From: Zasmidium citrigriseum
Lineage: Eukaryota; Ascomycota; Dothideomycetes; Mycosphaerellales; Mycosphaerellaceae
Length of the DNA stretch: 64,000 bases
Direction: 5' to 3'
Assembly (NCBI GenBank): GCA_002786025.1
Contig: NHNW01000002.1
Coordinates: 62,001 to 126,000, forward strand
A program made the translations under genes and the position numbers. Below are positions 11,001 through 21,055 of this stretch, in pieces; the first letter of the stretch is position 1; each line of letters opens with the position of its first letter. Below the pieces are notes generated by a model. The model was not told the DNA's origin. It worked only from the letters and a program-made list of their open reading frames with translations, and ran no database searches.

Positions 11001-12097
11001 CGTTTACTTTACGGGAATTTAAGCTACTATAACTAGGTATAAGCGAATAGACGATATCCTTCGTAGTCTTAGGCTAGCCCTAAAATTATAGGGAATTCGC
11101 TACCTACGTCGACTTCCCCTATTATAGTAGGAGTATATATAATCTTCTAGAAGGAATAGATAGACTTAGACGATATAGATAGATTAGAGAATCCTTTAAA
11201 AGGCTCGCGCTCTAAGATCCGTAGAGATAGTAAGCTATTTAGATTTTATACCCTATAGGATACGAAATTAGATATTACTATTTACGCTCTAGGAGCGACT
11301 TCCTTATACCTATTACTTTCTATATCCGCGTTCACGGTATTTAAAAGAGGGAGGGGAGTTAAAAATTCTTACCTCGACGTTACCGCCGCTACCGAATTAC
11401 TACCTAATATTACTAAGGCTAGATTTCTCTATATTAAAGACTAAGATAACGATAATATTAAGGGTATTCTCCTCGCTATAACTATTAATAAAGCGGCTCG
11501 AAGATTAAGGAGATAGGCTTATATACGCCCGCCTATTAGTATAACTACTAATATATATACTATATATAAACGGAAAGCTAAGAAAGTCCGCCCTATTAAG
11601 GAAGATAGTTCGAGAACTAATAGCTTAAAACCCGGCGGATCCCTTACCTAGCGAGACGACTACCTAGCTTATAAAGTAATACTTCCCCCGGGAAATAGTA
11701 AGTTCGATAGGAAATATCTAATTAAGAAGTTTTCTAATATTCCTAAAGAAAGCTAGCTAACCTAGGAACGTCTAGATACTATCGAGATTAGTATAGACTT
11801 ACTCCCTCTAGAACTAGAAATAATCTACGAGATACTCTATAATAGAGAAGCTACTATAGCCTATAGCTTTAAGTCTTTAGGACGAATTCGGGAAGAAGTA
11901 ATTAGACTATAGTATATTCGGACGATACTATATACGCTATAGTAATATCCGCTCTTCCGTTTAAATCTATTACTTCAGTCTATAGTTAAAGGTATAATTC
12001 GCGAACGGCTTAAAGTATAGACGATCGAATCTAGCTACTCGAGCTATTAGAATCCCTACTTCCTAGTTAGGAAGAAGTCTACTAGGCTAGAGAGGAC
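8100..12097 (+). pseudogene. gag-protease-RT (5' part) of giant element
   Basis: A long degraded plus-strand frame begins near 8100. It runs through a gag-like protein (about 8570-9200, with readable stretches such as FIDRFNNLIAEYNP and SRFRLN), a protease region near 10,680-10,760 (NEGSKGYI-type motif) and the start of reverse transcriptase (NPYFLVRKKS near 12050). The frame ends exactly at the hAT target duplication and continues at 21056. Stops are mostly TAG/TAA. Confidence 0.75.
12090..12097. repeat. hAT target-site duplication, left copy
   Basis: GAGAGGAC, identical to 21048-21055. Eight base pairs is the duplication length produced by hAT transposases. The identity extends leftward by CTA, which probably reflects the element's terminal TAG. 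Confidence 0.85.
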
Positions 12098-12240
12098 TAG
12101 ACGACGAAGTAGGCTAGGCTTAAGCCTAATAGTTAAAGTAGGCCGGGCCGAGGAGGTAAGGCCTAGTAGACTAGGTTAAAGCTAGGCCAAAGCCTAGATA
12201 GGGCCTACCTCGGCCTACTTTAGCCTAGTAAGAATACTAA
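12098..12240 (+). repeat. left terminal inverted repeat and subterminal region
   Basis: An 18-bp terminal repeat is followed by repeated GGCCTA/TAGGCC-type motifs. Matching motif-rich sequence, in opposite orientation, lies at 20930-21047. Such subterminal repeats are typical transposase-binding regions of hAT elements. Confidence 0.75.
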
Positions 12241-13189
12241 AACAATACGAGAGACTGCCTTATATAAGTAGTTTACTACGTATATATGAACGCGAGATAT
12301 AGATACTCTATAGGTTAAAAAACGAGCCGGCTACGTACGCCGACTACGAAGATATAACTATCGCACACCTAATAACGTAATCGTAAACCGACGGGAGTAG
12401 CCGAAAGCTTAGCTTTAAAGCCGAGCTCTCGTCGCAATTTGATCCTTCCTTTAACACTACCGATTTTTACGCTAGAGCGACGAAAATCGACCGCGCGATA
12501 TCGAGAAAACATCGCGAGATATCTACCGACTACGCCTACCGGCTACGTAAGCGAATATAACGAAGTACAATCTATCCCCGTCGCTACCGGCCGACGAACC
12601 GCCGAAAATAACGCCTTTATCGAGAGGAAAGCGCAGAAAGGCGGACGAGGACCTCTCGCTTAATTAGAATACTCGGCGCGACCGTATGCGTAAGTAGAAG
12701 ATAAGTAAGGATAGGGTAGAGGAGAATAGAGAGCGTAAGAGAAAGAATACGGCCTTTAGAAGATAGATAAAGAAGAACGTAGAGCCGGCTAAACTAAAGG
12801 GCTTAAGTAAGTAGTAGGAGAAGGTGAAACGAGATACCCTATAGGCTTAGTAGGAACTTAAGTAGTAAGTTAACCGTAGCTAGTAGACATAGCCGGTAGT
12901 ACTAACTCTCGTATAGGGTAATATCGATAGAGACAGCCGGCGACGAGAATACCGTATATACGGTAGAGGAAGCCGACGATATAGCCGCCGATAATACCGT
13001 ATCTAGTACACTCGTTCCTAGTAATACGATTCCTAGTACCTATCGATAGGAGGCGTAGACTATAGTAGAGATCGAGGATAAGGAGTAGATTTACGACGAG
13101 AATAGCGAGCGCGTAAGGCGGATAGGTATATATCTTTACTCGCCTAAGCCACCTAGTACTAATACCGAGGACGACGTATAGCGCGAGAG

Positions 13190-14229
13190 ATCCTAGATCC
13201 GTAAGGCGATAGTAAACGAGGAGCTCTGGTAGCGGTCGGTCTAGAAATACTAGTATAAGGCTATTTATAAGACGATAAAGAAGCTAGACCGCCTTAAGCG
13301 TATCGGCCGTATAGGACACTTCCTTAAGACCGACGCTAAGCTCTTCTTTAGTAACGAGCTAATCGTATATTACTTAGCCGTAGCCGGCACATATAGCCGG
13401 TATAAGAGTACTTTACTAACGATAGATAGGATATATTAGTAGGGGGTAGTACCTATAAGCTATACTACCTCTTTAACGAAACGGAGCGCGCGGTTATTAG
13501 AAACTATATAACCTAGGACAAGACGATTGTATCTTTATAGGCTTAGATAGATCTACGCGGATACGACCTAGTTATATACGGATTTCTAGACGACCCGCTA
13601 ATTCAAACGGCTACCGCGGCTAAGAAGATATATAATGTCTTCGTTCAAGATACTAAAGACCTTTATCTAGAGGTCGGCGTCTTTACCGAGGTTATAATCT
13701 AAGAGCGTATACTAGCCGTCTTTAGAATTAAGCCTATATTTATAGAGCTAGTTAGCCTCGAAGACCTTACTCTACTCGATAACGATAAGACGCGGTAGAT
13801 CTTACGGGGTCTTCGAATAGCTAATACGCGAATTAAGAGTAGAGAGCCCCTATACTTTACGGAGGCCTATATCGACTTCGAGGACGCTAGCCCTAACTTC
13901 GAGGAGGCTAGCCTTAACGAGTCTACTAGCGTAGCCGGTAGCCGTAGCCGGCTTAATATAGCTAATAAGCTCGTAGACTAGGCGATAGTAGAGGATATAG
14001 GAGAGGAGGAGTTTAAGCTTATAGTACTACTAACGGATCTAAATAGGAAGAGACTAGGTCTAGTTATACTAGACCTAGAGCCCGTATAAGGTAAGGACGA
14101 CGTTTCGGATAATAACTAGATATAGGACGATATACTAGCGGACTTTAGAGATAATAAAATAGATCTCGACTAGGGTTACTATAGTAACTAGTATATTAAT
14201 ATACTTATAGAGGCTTTAGGCTCTTAATG
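13190..14229 (+). pseudogene. unrecognised hAT-borne gene 1
   Basis: A degraded plus-strand frame with only RIP-type stops runs from about 13190 and is readable over more than 300 residues. An intron at 13380-13429 (GTAGCC donor in a 24-bp module, CTAAC branch site, AG) joins the two frames in phase. The product includes a hydrophobic stretch (DLVIYGFLDDPLIQ near 13565) and a long Asp/Glu-rich C-terminal part. No family is recognised. It lies upstream of the transposase in the same orientation; it could be an N-terminal part of the transposase gene, though about 500 bp of less coherent sequence separates them. Confidence 0.5.
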
Positions 14230-14690
14230 TAACTCTCTTCTCTCTATCTATATCTCTATCTCCTACTCTACGCTATTATACCTCGCCTCCCTAGTACGTT
14301 ACTAAATAGCTTATAGGTCCCCCCGCGATCTCTACGATTAATAATACGAGAAAGCGAATAATAAAATAGTAGAGTACTTCGATCTAGGGTATTATAGTCT
14401 AATAAGCGCTTTAGGGAATATATTGTATCGCTAATTAGTCGTACCTAAGGGACGGAACTAACCTCTATATCGCTAGTAACTAGTAATCCTCTCCTAAGGC
14501 GGCGACTTTTCTAAATAATAAATAGCCTAGGAGCCTCTCGTCGAACTCGTTCTTCTCCTACCTAGATACGAAGCTTACCTCTATCTACTTAGAATTAGAT
14601 CGATACCTTATAGTTCCGTAAGATTAAGGACATATACATTTACGAGGACAAACATAAAAAAGCGCTAACCGAATACTACTATTCGTAGTA
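14230..14690. other. spacer between hAT genes
   Basis: Starts with a pyrimidine-rich tract (14230-14300) and has no frame that could be followed confidently. It could hold the promoter of the transposase gene. Confidence 0.3.
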
Positions 14691-17175
14691 GGATAAGGTA
14701 TTATAATATAGCCTATATAAGAAGCTCGTTAAAAAACGAGGACGGTTACTATTCGAGTTTAGTAGTAGGAGGTCGAGCTCGTACGTATAGCAATTCTACT
14801 ATAAGGGCGTTTCTAAGGAGGGTAAACCCTATATTCTTTATTAAATCTACGGGGTACGATTAGTATATCTAGGCTTTAATATAGGGACGACGACTATAGA
14901 TCGATATTTATCTTCGAGAGGCTATCTAAGAGTAGTCGTAGTATAAGGACGTAACGATACTAAAGCTACGAAGGCTAAAGAGCTTACGGTACGTCTTATA
15001 CGAATACCTAGATCTGCCGGCTACGTATACCGGCGACGCGTACGATACTAACGAAGAATAGATATAGAAAAAGCGTTCGGGATTTAGGGGAGAATCGCTA
15101 AGTCTAAACGACTTTACGATACTATAGACTAATATAATTATTACTAATAGGTTACTATTAGATTTCTTCGAGCGAGATTCGGTATAGCGAACGTACCTTT
15201 GTTTTTATAAGGAACTATAGTTCCGCTCCTCGATAACTTAACGAGTACGGATCCGAGAACGCGAGAAGTAGGTAATATAGTAACTATAAGGACAAATTAA
15301 CAAGTATAACGTAGTCGCTTTCGCTATTAATACGTAGTCTGCTAGGTTAATACGGGCGTCGTTCCTTAGTATTAAGGGCTATTAGATTAATCCTACTTAG
15401 ATATACTATAAGGAGCTACTCGATTTCCCTACTATTCATAGCTAACATACTAGAGAGAATATAGCGAAACTAGTCGAGAAGGCGATAACCACCTATAGAT
15501 GTAATCTAAAACTAACCGCCTTAACGACTAATAATACTAGTAATAATAGAACTCTCTATCGCGCCGTATACGTATTATAGAGTTACGAAGCGCGGAATAT
15601 TCTAACGAATTATAGTCTAAAGGCAGTTTAGAAGCTGTCTCGATCTACTAACCTTACTTAGCTTACGAGGCCGGAAATATAGGTATAAGCCGTAGGTAAA
15701 GAGAACGAAATAGAGTCTAACGAGTAGGTTTACGATCCAATAGAGGATAGTCCGAAGATATATTACTTTCTATGTTTTGCGTATATTGTATAGCTAGCTA
15801 TTCGGGCTCTATTCTCGGAGCTAAAGCTAGAGCTAGAAAACGACGATCCGGAGAAGACGATTAATAATACTACGTCTCGTAAGGAACTTGAAAAGATTAA
15901 AGCTAAGAATAACGTGGATAATATTCCCCCGGTTCTTTTCAAAGTAAGTATTAGATTTGATCGTAGCCAGTACGCGTAGCCGGTAATAGATATCTCTAAT
16001 TAATAATCTATAGATTCGATAAACAGCGATCCACGTTAATTAGAACTTACCGCGGACGGAGGCTTTCGAACGTATTTAGGTCGAAGTGAATAAGAAACCT
16101 ATTATAACTAAAACCGCGATAGCCTAGAACGAAAGATAGATACGAGATATATTTCGGAAGCTTCGACTTATCTAAGATATTAAGATACGATTCGACTCGA
16201 CATACTATATACTTATTCGACTATATCTTCTCCGAGACTCTATTAATAAATACTATAAGGAGTATAAGCTCGACTAGCTAGAGCTCTCTAATACTAAGTG
16301 GAATTAAGTTAAATACCTTATTAAGTTAGCGAGACCTTTCGCCGAGGCGACAGCGCTTATAAGTCGGTCCTATAGGCTAATACTACACCTTATCTTCGGG
16401 TTATATAACTACATTTTTAATAGTATAGATACTACTCGATAGCGACTTAAGAAGAAACGGAAACTATAGAAAAAGAGAATACTTATAGCTCTAGAGGCAG
16501 CGTAGGAAAAGCTTAACAAATACTACTCGTAGACGTTTAAATTATTTAGCGATCTATATAGTATTACTATCCTACTCTATCTATCTTAGAAGCGCGAGTT
16601 ATAGCAACTGCCTAAATAGGCTTTAGAACTAGAGTAGGAAGAGCACTATTAGAGCTGTCTCGAGAAGCTCTTTCGAAAGTATTCTAAAGCTAAAAGCGGC
16701 TCGTAGGAGAACTCGTAAGGTAGATAGCGTAAGAGACAGAAGCTTACGAAATAGTTACGACTCTTCCGAGGAAATTCAAGTTAGACGAGCTCTTCTTAAT
16801 ACGTAGAAGACGACCCTATAGAAGAGTTCTTTCGTTATAAACGAAAAGGTACGTTAACCGTAGCCGGCACTCGTCGCCGGTAGCCGCCGCTAGCTACCTA
16901 TAGTAGTCTAACGTATCTAGACTTTTCGAACCTCTATAATATAGTTAGTAACGATATCCTTACTTAATAGGCCTATATTAAGCAATAGTTCCCTACGATT
17001 GCGAGGATTACTAGAGACGTACTATATATACCTAGAGTAGGAATTAGATACGAGAGGGCCTTTAGTATTACTCGCTACTAAGCTCGTTATAATCGCTCGT
17101 ACTATCCGGATATCTTTCGCGCTATTATAATATGTCGCTACCGTCTTCGTTAAGAGTTAAGGTAGATAGAACGGT
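14690..17175 (+). pseudogene. hAT transposase
   Basis: Landmarks of the hAT RNase H-like transposase appear in order on the plus strand. HTRENIAKL at 15446-15472 corresponds to the HTGENIA block. LTTNNTSNN at 15521-15547 corresponds to the catalytic xxDNASNN block, with the Asp codon now Asn. FAYIVQLAIRALF lies near 15780, the RWNSTYYIL block near 16190, and a dimerisation (hATC) motif of the form IPxxGxxxERAFS at about 17030-17070. RIP-type stops and the D-to-N change make it inactive. At least one intron, near 15,940-16,020, is likely. Residues before about 15,150 are uncertain. Confidence 0.82.
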
Positions 17176-17460
17176 CTAATAAGGATTCGTTCGAGTAGTA
17201 GATAGAGGACGACGGATTAGAGTATAAGATCGCTACTAAGGAGGATTACTACTATATTAGTAACGAAGGAGAAGGCGGCGTACTAAAGAGAAGAAAAACG
17301 CGTACCTAAAGTAGAAAGAAGCCTACTATATTAGATACTACTCTTAAGGCGTAGTCGGTAGGCGTAGCCGGCGTTCACGTGCTTCTTAGCGTCTTAGCGG
17401 CAATTTAAAAGCTTCCCTTTTCCCCGCTCTTACTATCTTCCTTTCTTTAACCTCTAAAAC

Positions 17461-18260
17461 ATACCCGCTATCTACTCTAATTAATTCCTAAGTAATTAAG
17501 CCCTTCTCGATATACCTAGTCTAATAGATAAGGATAAATATAACGACAAACTCGATAATAACGATAAGGTTAATAACGATATACTATCCTCCCCGCTACT
17601 ACGAAAACGTATAGAAGTACTACCTACTAGTTAACCCTTAGCTTCGGATACGGACAGACCTATATCGCGGAAGACTACGGTATAAAGTACCTATCGTTAG
17701 CTAAGTACCTAATCTAACGACGGTCTTAGAACCCTAAAGCCGGTCCGTCTCGACTATAAACGTCCTCGAAAGCCCCTCGTAAAACGGTACTAGCGAAGGC
17801 GCTACGCAAAACTACGAAAGCACCTTAATAAAAGAAGAGAGCTAAGATAGCGATTAGAAAGGTATAAAAAAGCGCAGCCCGAACTAGGCGTAAGAAAGTT
17901 ATCGCGAAGAAAACGGATTATAATACACCTCGTAAACGACGAAAATTTAATACTAGTCGAGCTACTCTACATAAGATCCGGAAATATTAGGGCTCTACGA
18001 AATCCGGGTATTCCCTCCTTATATAAAAGGTACCCTTCTAACGACTAGTTCGAGAGATTTCTAGCGAGTAGGCCGTAGGTAGGGAAATTATAAGATAGTA
18101 GGCGTCCGCGATCGAGGTATTATAAGAAGCCGCCGAAGCGTTCCTTATCTTAGAATTCGAGTGCTCCAACCTACTAGCTATCCACGCGAAACGCGTTACC
18201 CTTATATCGAAGGATATAGCTCTATATAAAAAGCTACGGTAGCGCTAGACTAGCCGAGAT
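17461..18260 (+). pseudogene. CenH3-like histone H3 gene carried by hAT
   Basis: The histone part is in one frame, 17763-18242. A basic tail containing KAPRK leads to SRATLHKIRKYQ at about 17958, VPFQRLVREI at 18030-18059, LQEAAEAFL at 18120-18146 and AIHAKRVT at 18177-18200, ending [10 protein letters not shown]. These are the alpha-N, alpha-1, alpha-2 and alpha-3 segments of H3. In-frame stops at 17988, 18039 and 18123 coincide with three invariant Gln of H3 (YQ, PFQ, LQE), as RIP of CAG/CAA predicts. The loop between VREI and LQEA is 20 residues against 17 in canonical H3, and LQEAAEAFL and VREISSE are the forms seen in fungal CENP-A. The N-terminus (17461 on) is open in a neighbouring frame, so a splice or frameshift near 17,760 is needed. 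Confidence 0.87.
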
Positions 18261-18640
18261 TAGTAAGAATAGTACTAATAAATATCTATTATTCCCTAAG
18301 TCTTTCCGTGCATTTTCCCGCGTTTTCAAGCGGTATATAAAGGGTTTTTACCCGTAGTAAAGTATAAGGTAAAGTATAATCCCCGCGGCTTACTATACGT
18401 TTTTTCCCTAGCTTCTACTAGCTACGTAGGCCGGCTATAGCTCCTTCCCTATATTCTTCGGCATACCTACCGTTATATACACCTATAACGTTATACGAAA
18501 TACTAGTATAAAATACCGGTCGTAATCTTAAACCCTCCGATACTATAACACCTACCCCTACCGCCGCCTTAGCCCGTTTCGAGCGCTCTAACCGCCTACG
18601 ACGCCCGGAAAAATTCATATATACTTCACCTTACCTTATT
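18261..18640. other. spacer between the two histone-like genes
   Basis: 380 bp without a convincing plus-strand frame. A 66-codon open frame on the minus strand (18418-18618) has no recognisable domain and is probably chance. The region may contain the promoter of the downstream histone-like gene. Confidence 0.4.
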
Positions 18641-19451
18641 ATAGCGCGTATAAAGAGACCTACCGCGTAAGCTAAAGCGTTAGTAGCGAAAGCGCCTCGT
18701 AGGCAGCTCTCTACTAAGGCGCTACTAGGTATCGCTCGTACGCGTAATATTAAGATACCGGGCGTAAATAGTTAGGAAGGCCGTACTTTAACGCCTTAGT
18801 AGTAACTTCGTAAGCCCGTAGCCGGCACTCGTAGCCGGTAGGTCGCTAACGCTTTAATAGAGAGATACTTTCGAGAGACGCGACGTCTCTAGGAAATTCC
18901 GCCTGACTAGGAAATCCCCTTCGCGCTATTCTCGCGCCTTATATGGGAAATAGTATAGAAAGAGTACGTAGACTAGGCTGAGAGAGTTAGGCGTTATATC
19001 GAAGATAAGGGCAAATATATTTATTTCGAGCTACGCTAGAAGAAAGATACAATCTAAGCCCTCCGATATACTATAGTATACGTACTATACGATATATTTA
19101 AAGGTATATTCTACGTAGCCAGTAAGCGTAGCCGGCGTATACTAATAATTTTTAGCCGCTAACCTTATTACGCTTAACGGAAAGCGTATTACGCTTATAT
19201 AGAAGGATCTTTATACTCTTAGTCGGATCCTTAAGATCTATAATAACTTCGAGCTACGCAGTACAATAGACGCTCCCTACCTAAGAGCTACTATTAGTAT
19301 CGGTCTTAAGAAGCAAATCACCTACCTAAACAATAAGAGACAAGGTAAAGTTAACTCTCGTATTATTACGAACGATAATAACGAAGCGGCGTTCTAGGCC
19401 TAAGAGGAGTAATATAAGGGTAATAGAGGCCGGAAGCGCCTCGTCTAGGGC

Positions 19452-19615
19452 AGCTAGCGTACGCTACGTAAGAGAACTCGAGTTGCCTTACCTAAGCCCG
19501 TCAGTAGCTAGCGTACGCTACGTAAGAGAGGACCTCGAGTTACCTTACCTAAGCCCGTTAGTAGCTAGCGTAATCCACGTAAGAGAGCTCGAGTTACCTT
19601 ACCTAAGCCCGTCGA
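19452..19615 (+). repeat. three tandem 54-57-bp repeats
   Basis: Copies start at 19452, 19506 and 19563. In the frame of the H3-like gene they encode a basic unit of the form SSQRTLRKR-x-RVTLPKPV, followed by an acidic run from a GAA tract at about 19614-19634. Differences between copies are few, one being a 3-bp insertion in copy 2. Confidence 0.85.
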
Positions 19616-20582
19616 AGAAGAAGAAGAAGAAGAATAAGACGGTAGCGATAAAGAGGCTCTTTAGCGTCGTGTCGACAAAACGGATAGAGAGCTAAAACGA
19701 TTATCGTCGCGCCTCGAGAGAATAGAGGCCAATAACGAAGAAGGCTTAAGTAATAAGAGTACTAGCTATACGGACCGTATTATATAGTATAAGTTACGTA
19801 GCCGGTATACGTAGCCGGTATTTACTAATAATATCTAGTAAAACGTAAACGAGAGAAGAAGATAGCTAGGAAGGCTAAGGTAAAGAAGAAGCTAGCCGCC
19901 TAGAAGAAAGCGGAGAAGGCTACTAAGAAGTAGACCGATAATAACCGTAAATACTATATAATCCTCTAACGCGTCTAGGGCTAGGTCGATATTAAGGACT
20001 TTAAGATTACTACGGACGAGGCTAAGTATATTAACGGCCTACTAAGGGACTTTTAGAACTACGCTAAGACGAAGGCTAGTCGTAAGCCCCTACTAGATTA
20101 GATAGGCGATATAGTCGATCCTAACGTCTATCCGACTATTAAAGCCTAACCTAGTAAGAAGGCGACCCCTAAGAAGACTCCGCTATAGCTAACGACTAGA
20201 GTAGTATAGGCGCCTAACTCTAGCGTAGCCGGCGACCGTAGCCGGTAGGAAGACGAAGAACGAAAGTAAGAATAGGCGATAAATAAGGCGTAGCTAATCG
20301 CCGAATATATCTAGAACTAGAAGGATATTAAGGTCCTTAAGATTCGAAAGGATAAGGCGGACGTAGCTAACGCGCTACTTAAGTAGTAGTAGATAGAGTT
20401 TCGCGCCTAGCGCCCTAAACCTCCCGTAGGTTATCCTTAGGAAGAGTAGGCTAAAGAGTAGCCTACTATCGGTAAATAAGATAGTATTAATATCTATTAG
20501 CTACCCGAAGAGCCCGTAGCCGGTAGTAGTAGCCGGTAGCTAACCGAGACTATTACGACTAATACTTAGGTATCGCCGAGTA

Positions 20583-20675
20583 AGTAGCTAGTAGAGGCTA
20601 GTACGAAGGAGCCTTAGGATATACCGACCGAGTAGCTAGTAGAGGCTAGTACGAAGGAGACTTAGGACCCGCCGC
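20583..20675 (+). repeat. two tandem 48-bp repeats
   Basis: AGTAGCTAGTAGAGGCTAG begins at 20583 and again at 20631. In frame this gives two copies of a QLVEASTKE-containing unit near the C-terminus of the H3-like gene. Confidence 0.8.
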
Positions 20676-20769
20676 CCTAGTAGTAGGCTAAGGAACCGCA
20701 GACTAAGACTAGTACTAGAGAGAATACCGCCTAAAGTAGAGGCTCGAGAGATAATTTATTTTTCAAGCG

Positions 20770-21047
20770 ATATTAAGAGCGACGATACCCCTACTCCCCC
20801 CCCCTCCTTAAAAGTTATATAGCTTACCTCTTTACTATACTACTTCCCCTACCTAATGTTATATAGCCGATTAACACTTTATCTATATAAAGATCAAATA
20901 TATCTTTTCTCTATTTATAGCCTACTTTAGCCTAGTAGGCCTACTAAGGCCTACTCGATTTTTCCCGGGCCTAGAAGCCTAATTTTAATAGGCCTAGTTC
21001 TAGGCCGTAGGCCTAGCCTAACCTAACCCAGCCCACCTCGGTATCTA
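20770..21047 (-). repeat. right subterminal region and inverted repeat of hAT
   Basis: Includes a CT-rich run near 20800 and clustered TAGGCC/GGCCTA motifs at 20930-21020. The terminal 18 bp (21030-21047) pair with the left end. No gene. Confidence 0.75.
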
Positions 21048-21055
21048 GAGAGGAC
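21048..21055. repeat. hAT target-site duplication, right copy
   Basis: GAGAGGAC, identical to 12090-12097. The reverse transcriptase frame of the host element resumes directly after it with YRLINT, so removing the insertion restores frame continuity. Confidence 0.85.

Follow-up and report, generated by a model that had tools for sequence, protein, structure and literature searches.

An H3-type histone variant gene carried by several families of RIP-mutated hAT elements in Zasmidium citrigriseum

Structure of the element and its surroundings

The window, i.e. the whole stretch of 64,000 nucleotides analyzed here (Zasmidium citrigriseum, GCA_002786025.1, contig NHNW01000002.1, positions 62,001 to 126,000), contains a hAT element that holds an ORF1 region, a transposase and two H3-like histone genes, H3L1 and H3L2, between inverted ends (Table 1). 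The element is bordered on both sides by GAGAGGAC, a perfect 8-bp target site duplication. The other full copies of the same family (family A) have perfect duplications of their own, TCTAAGTT in L019 and CTTCTACT in L028; an 8-bp duplication is found in all three family-A copies with both ends, and also in the single bounded copy of family B and the single one of family C. Terminal inverted repeats are present in the bounded copies of all three families. The family B copy measures 9,807 bp, has GTAGTAGC twice and ends similarly to family A; the family C copy measures 10,143 bp, has GTTATTAG twice and an end that differs from A, each of these descriptions referring to one copy.

Table 1. Coordinates of the features in the window
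Feature	Position	Strand	Basis and remarks
hAT element, family A	12098..21047	+	8,950 bp; inverted ends 20 bp, 14/20 matching
Left target site duplication GAGAGGAC	12090..12097	n/a	end comparison
Right target site duplication GAGAGGAC	21048..21055	n/a	end comparison
Dispersed YRYAGCYRGYR sites (22)	12537..20525	both orientations	7 pairs 13 bp apart
ORF1 region	12608..13772	+	carried over from L028 511-1675; protein-level similarity to family B
Predicted intron with motif doublet, ORF1 region	12865..12916	+	L028 768-819
Predicted intron with motif doublet, ORF1 region	13365..13425	+	L028 1268-1328
hAT transposase, minimum extent	14828..17322	+	similarity to families B and C; from L028 2836-5330
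Predicted transposase intron with motif doublet	15944..16013	+	L028 3952-4021
Predicted transposase intron with motif doublet	16849..16920	+	L028 4857-4928; place and phase match family C
H3L1, H3-type histone variant gene, RIP-mutated	17763..18242	+	frame and PF00125 score
H3L2, the other H3-like gene, with a long loop 1	18641..19250	+	profile score, intron removal
H3L2 predicted intron, relaxed pattern	18810-18860	+	intron pattern
H3L2 predicted intron, strict pattern	19104-19155	+	intron pattern
Predicted intron with motif doublet, right part	19789..19838	+	L028 7797-7846

The ORF1 region resembles family B in protein stretches (43% and 29%), and a Pfam search of this region in L028 gave no match. 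The transposase frames are heavily mutated. The hAT dimerisation domain (Dimer_Tnp_hAT, PF05699) is recognized in L028 at 25.7 bits (cut-off 21.4); it stays under this cut-off in the window copy (13.4 bits) and in family B (18.7 bits), and the Pfam search gave zero match to it in family C. Neither DUF659 in L028 nor a DNA-binding domain in the element was found by the Pfam search. In families A and B, the transposase lies upstream of the histone gene and shares its strand; in family C, it is located at the left, on the strand opposite to the histone gene.

Joined to each other, the flanks of the window element form one open frame. From the general look of such proteins, we take this frame to be a gypsy-type reverse transcriptase. 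The right flank matches RT_RNaseH with 28.8 bits (cut-off 24.8) and RVT_1 with 13.8 bits, the latter under its own cut-off. The hAT element sits within this older retroelement. At a larger scale, positions 1-32000 of the window are AT-rich and RIP-mutated with a GC content of 27-45%, and an abrupt border separates them from positions 32001-64000, with a GC content of 50-55% and long open frames.

The histone genes and their mutation by RIP

The sequence-only reading of this locus had proposed a histone H3 gene with CpA-to-TpA mutations, carried in a hAT transposon, and in these respects it is borne out. With stops treated as X, the window frame of H3L1 scores significantly against the Pfam Histone profile (PF00125; 70.8 bits, E 1.6e-19, cut-off 26.4), and the less mutated copy L028 reaches 78.8 bits when its stops are read as Q. 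As judged from its sequence, H3L1 encodes an H3-type histone fold. The predicted structure, a poor model (mean pLDDT 65.4, pTM 0.39), shows four helices in the correct order; its six PDB matches at E<0.1 are entries with nucleosomes or hexasomes (TM 0.22-0.45, rmsd 7.6-13.1). In contrast to host H3, H3L1 can be read through with no introns.

The frame is interrupted by 11 in-frame stops, seven of which are sense codons in L028, with CAA or CAG at six positions and TGG at the seventh (18096). The earlier assumption that all core stops had been Gln is hence ruled out by a Trp codon, and holds for the six. Among the three stops assigned to invariant Gln positions, 18039 and 18123 are indeed CAA in L028, but 17988 is a stop in eight of eight copies, and Gln at this position follows solely from H3 relatives. 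Four stops (17826, 17988, 18069 and 18099) are kept in the window and in all seven other family-A copies compared.

Between L028 and the window, 342 differences are C>T changes, of which 282 precede A, and 305 are G>A changes, of which 245 follow T; 164 differences run in the opposite direction, because L028 is itself mutated. The TpA/ApT ratio is 2.02 in the window element versus 0.51 in the window's right half, and the (CpA+TpG)/(ApC+GpT) ratio is 0.13 versus 1.32. The window element has clearly been killed by RIP, and all element copies examined are mutated.

H3L2 scores 17.6 bits when read straight, versus a best score of 11.6 in 1000 shuffles; upon removal of the two predicted introns it scores 35.0 bits versus 9.5 for shuffles, and two introns in this gene are plausible. 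Its reading in L028 starts with MARIKRPTAQAKALAAKAPRR, which resembles the H3 tail, and its predicted loop 1 is clearly longer than that of H3. No counterpart of H3L2 was detected in family B at E 1e-4.

Copies and families in the genome

A PF00125 profile search of the genome (44.4 Mb, 148 contigs) yields at least 49 matches, 38 with in-frame TAG or TAA and 11 without. Among the stop-free matches are host H3 (L029), the two-exon host CenH3 (L003) and further genes with a histone fold. Because 38 of the 49 matches contain in-frame stops, H3L1 belongs to a repeat and is not one pseudogene. That a single host pseudogene had landed in the element by chance is ruled out by these at least 38 RIP-marked matches; moreover, the gene occupies the same spot in eight of eight family-A copies compared, seven of which were fetched for holding it.

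According to nucleotide similarity, 20 places of the 38 plus the window (21 in all) were sorted into families, and the other 15 are unsorted. Family A comprises eight members (the window, L011, L019, L020, L021, L022, L024, L028), family B three (L023, L025, L027), family C seven (L010, L012, L014, L016, L017, L018, L026), family D two (L013, L015) and family E one (L009), whose stretch contains another two of the 38 matches. Amino-acid identity of the transposases is 42-56% between A and B and 27-33% between A and C; reversed B and C sequences as controls gave zero match. Three bounded, diverged hAT families (A, B and C) hold a histone gene between their ends. For the other two families, the link to hAT is putative: both members of D are partial loci, and a comparison of E with the transposases of A, B and C gave no match at E 1e-4.

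H3L1 and H3L2 are both present in the window, L019 and L028, as well as in four family-A copies extending to the right end (L011, L020, L021, L022); L024 contains H3L1, and its similarity to the element fades soon afterwards. All family-A copies except the window entered the comparison via the histone search. As the sequence-only reading had expected, related copies keep the gene, i.e. three of three with both ends, two of them found via the histone search and the third being the window itself.

Gene-less copies were sought with 78 bases of the left end as query, which returned 16 places. Six of these have an H3-like match near the expected distance (C61 twice, C3:12431, C120, C60, C76), and at C13 the match is much farther off, so that an insertion may intervene. 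Five meet a contig end first (C148, C111, C134, C65, C3:1738; the last three judged by coordinates), and the element match ends after 3.7 kb at C122 and after 1.8 kb at C145. C90 has a diverged H3-like gene, and C95 shows no match within the 1.6 kb seen. In this small test, no intact copy without the histone gene occurs among the 16 left-end places. The locus at C90 (L040, C90:337500-339100) is a more diverged element with an H3-like gene of 65.6% nucleotide identity, perhaps from another family. Furthermore, two open and strongly diverged H3-like histone-fold genes lie about 8 kb apart at L034 (C134:56000-57300) and L033 (C134:48000-49300); they score 37.1 and 28.0 bits against the H3 profile and have no TAG or TAA stops in the match.

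Motif doublets and introns

The element contains an array of a short motif, YRYAGCYRGYR, with 22 sites in the window copy versus 0.9 expected, 21 sites in L028 and 21 in L019. Family B shares this motif (L025: 21 sites versus 1.6 expected, shuffles up to 9), and family C has another one, CYRYAGTAGYR (L012: 14 sites versus 0.8 expected, in pairs 11 bp apart). The arrays consist mostly of pairs. As controls, three window stretches outside the element contain one to two sites; family D has one site of the A/B motif and family E four. Both patterns were picked after the repeats had been seen. A motif-free count of places sharing one doublet word gave 8 for L028, 12 for the window, 13 for B, 11 for C and 8 for E, versus 3, 4, 1 and 1 in four control stretches. 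An exact search for the paired motif matches only at C61 (four) and C122 (two), because the other copies are mutated. In family E (L009, C1:303075-313074), where four histone stretches lie within 10 kb, the doublet word is TACTAACTAYGG, whose complement by eye resembles those of the other families (CGTAG..GTA). Longer repeats occur as well: 21-bp units are arrayed at L025:7198-7526 (family B), with 11 registers, and family-A copies vary in a 21-bp tandem array near window position 13926, which is mostly missing from the window copy.

In family A (L028), six of 14 motif clusters fall within strict intron candidates (n=7), at an expected fraction of 0.01 (p 2e-8), and eight lie outside. The corresponding counts are 2 of 15 clusters for B (p 0.036) and 2 of 11 for C (p 0.026); with a relaxed intron pattern they rise to 8 of 14 (L028), 4 of 15 (B) and 4 of 11 (C). 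The enrichment of doublets in introns is strong in family A only. Avoidance of coding stretches is weak: in L028, two of 14 clusters lie wholly within stretches that match family B at protein level (p 0.046), or two of eight when the left part is taken alone (p 0.077), and one of these two clusters (at 1282) is itself an intron candidate. One predicted transposase intron has equal position and phase in A and C, and bears in each the motif of its own family.

The doublets could be unrelated to the histone, i.e. introner-like or slippage-made repeats that spread inside the element, and repeated short introns are indeed known from fungi. This would leave many doublets outside introns and in both orientations to be accounted for, as well as the different motifs that A and C bear in the same old intron; we regard such an origin as rather unlikely.

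Relationship of the H3-like genes to H3 and CenH3

The protein of family A shares traits with fungal CenH3 (CENP-A): a W before the invariant Q (TRWQ in L028), a longer loop 1 and the alpha-2 sequence LQEAA-AFLV with its AA-AFL core. The traits are not common to the other H3-like genes. W is replaced by F in families C, D and E and in P0122, an intact 164-aa H3-like protein from a metagenomic contig, and family B is unreadable there; the longer loop occurs in A, B and P0122, and the insertion is absent from C, D and E. In addition, the C-terminus of the H3-like proteins differs from that of fungal CenH3. A sequence search of the PDB places Schizosaccharomyces pombe Cnp1 at the top with 92.8 bits, by a small margin over the best H3 (90.4 bits). 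P0122 was found among the 120 of 406 matches listed in a protein search, and further intact relatives may exist beyond these; in a separate profile search against the protein database, long H3 proteins crowded out the other matches. The host CenH3 has named matches in Cercospora beticola (86% over 79%) and Zymoseptoria brevis (77% over 95%).

The main tree was inferred from 37 rows, including eight H3-like rows (among them P0122) and 15 CenH3 rows. One branch (100/94*) has all eight H3-like rows on one of its sides, and the CenH3 rows form a group of their own without them (100/99*); an earlier run with a less accurate host H3 sequence gave 96/93* and 100/99*, respectively. The program warns that the long branches of C, D and E meet and that their joining may be false, and RIP skews the base composition. 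When these long rows are omitted, A, B and P0122 group together (100/97*); their placement on the side of CenH3 has support of 93/80, too little to be decisive.

Clade tests on the main tree, partly picked after the first tree, do not reject a grouping of the H3-like rows with all CenH3 (p 0.30), with host CenH3 (p 0.077), with host H3 (p 0.22) or with host H3 and Armillaria H3 (p 0.30). Rejected are the groupings of A and B with host H3 (p 0.005) and of A and B with Mycosphaerellales CenH3 (p 0.02). With the earlier host H3 sequence, p was 0.20 for A, B and P0122 with all CenH3, 0.25 for A and B with all CenH3 and, in the reduced tree, 0.16 for the H3-like rows with host H3. Tree groups and clade tests therefore point to a lineage of its own, whose depth is uncertain. 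The earlier label "CENP-A-like" describes traits of family A, but the origin of the gene is not thereby settled: the H3-like group lies outside both fungal H3 and fungal CenH3, and a sister relationship to either one is not rejected.

Selection on the histone core

Transversions were counted by codon position in a protein-guided alignment of the histone core. Because RIP makes only transitions, transversions record older evolution. At positions 1/2/3 they number 19/10/32 between A and B and 16/9/31 between C and D, which pooled gives 35/19/63 (p 3e-6). The rank order 3 > 1 > 2 holds in ten of ten family pairs, which share branches, and p is below 0.05 in eight of them (exceptions: A-D, p 0.22; B-D, p 0.097). 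When the same DNA is read in the other two frames, the peak shifts along with the DNA. A DNA-guided alignment over longer stretches reproduces the order in seven of seven H3-like pairs, with p from 0.23 (A-B) to 0.00025 (C-D). The transposases of A and B display the same pattern in three stretches (p 0.01 to 0.0001); no codon-position bias was seen between the transposases of A and C (p 0.55) or in a spacer control (p 0.49). From the transversion pattern we conclude that the H3-like protein was, to judge by its substitutions, functional while the families diverged.

These results bear on the published reading for related elements, passive transduplication (Dhillon et al. 2019, PMC6710886), according to which a transcript of host H3 entered a hAT element in the distant past and was amplified there unused, until RIP killed the copies. 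The intron-free H3L1 would fit a captured transcript, and placing all H3-like rows together with host H3 is not rejected. What speaks against it is the codon-position constraint in the core, the rejected grouping of A and B with host H3, and the presence of the histone in both A and C, whose transposases share so little identity. We therefore consider passive amplification unlikely.

A histone that was selected could also have served as an architectural helper, packing or bending an element of 9-10 kb so that its ends meet for the transposase, with no part in anti-silencing. The length of the elements and the retention of the histone alongside the transposase would be in line with such a role; yet most hAT elements are not known to need a histone, and the intron doublets would be left unexplained, so that we rate it as quite improbable. 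Less probable still is a captured CENP-A that steers the element to centromeric or kinetochore chromatin: the family-A traits, the top PDB match to Cnp1 and the tree without long rows are in its favor, against which stand the CenH3 group that leaves out the H3-like rows, the rejected grouping of A and B with Mycosphaerellales CenH3, and the families in which W and the loop insertion are missing.

Comparison with published systems

The sequence-only reading knew of no described system of this kind; this proved wrong. hAT elements with H3-like genes have been reported from Pyrenophora tritici-repentis (Manning et al. 2013, PMC3538342) and from Pseudocercospora, Cercospora and Sphaerulina, with Pseudocercospora fijiensis, Cercospora zeae-maydis and others, all Mycosphaerellaceae (Dhillon et al. 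2019, PMC6710886). The window element is genuine, and elements of this kind have been published before, probably from the same fungal family. Among the matches listed in our search, which covered few subscription journals, there are no other reports of H3-like genes in transposons.

Dhillon et al. (PMC6710886) infer that a host H3 transcript was captured once, roughly 100 million years ago, with H3 and not CenH3 as the reference. By description, those elements agree with ours in being hAT elements with an 8-bp duplication and of similar size (9.5-9.9 kb versus 8.95 kb), in containing one H3-like copy or two, of which the second bears an insertion, and in having AT-rich blocks and copies dead by CpA>TpA RIP; the 16-residue insertion of their second copy recalls the long loop 1 of H3L2. 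They differ in forming one repeat family in P. fijiensis, as against several families in one genome here, and in the domains detected: DUF659 but no dimerisation domain there, and the reverse here. The authors found no further direct or inverted repeats, in contrast to the motif doublets, and our elements differ by description in a selected H3-like group of their own and in the predicted introns of the second copy. The Pyrenophora elements (PMC3538342), again compared by description, likewise have inverted ends that enclose an H3-like gene, one more ORF and a hAT dimerisation domain, and their H3L protein likewise matches neither H3 nor CenH3, with ESTs present; unlike ours, they are 5.6 and 2.3 kb long, near-identical and mostly intact, with one H3-like gene. 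Relative to the descriptions in both papers (PMC3538342, PMC6710886), new are the three bounded families, the constraint on the histone core, the predicted H3L2 introns and the doublets.

The closest functional analogue of the motif arrays appears to be VANDAL21 of Arabidopsis. We take this element to belong to the Mutator-like superfamily, i.e. not to hAT. VANDAL21, likewise a DNA transposon, has a short motif specific to its family, which forms arrays in introns and other non-coding DNA, but it works via VANC proteins and without a histone (PMC5735166). Motif binding and loss of methylation have been demonstrated for VANDAL21/VANC21 (PMC5735166); for our arrays, binding by a protein is a prediction.

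Implications for the biology of the elements

Our tentative preference, at a little short of an even chance, is that H3L1 is a histone variant which a hAT lineage has long kept under selection, and which was loaded on the element via the doublets, so that the chromatin of the element escaped silencing. The window element is a RIP-killed hAT copy with a transposase and two H3-type variant genes. According to this model, H3L1 would be no fresh passenger from the host; it would be an old part common to several hAT families, selected during their divergence. The H3-like protein may have paired with host H4 and entered nucleosomes on element DNA, and an element-encoded DNA-binding protein reading the doublets could have helped its deposition. 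Element chromatin might thus have evaded host silencing long enough for transcription and movement. That the histone acts on the element's own chromatin, as the sequence-only reading had supposed, is probable in our view and gains indirect support from the constraint at protein level and from the motif doublets.

Whether a hAT lineage possesses a chromatin system of its own, in which a transposon-owned H3 variant is loaded via doublets in introns and spacers and counters silencing, is doubtful. If true, it would be a histone-based counterpart of VANDAL anti-silencing, and an H3 variant lineage would live in transposons and not in hosts. If the histone variant was selected, the view taken in the literature, that a housekeeping gene was amplified passively, would need revision. 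The intact P0122 and the motif doublets make a chromatin role testable in yeast or Neurospora. Should selfish DNA own a selected histone variant, chromatin would be a tool that the transposon uses no less than its host does.
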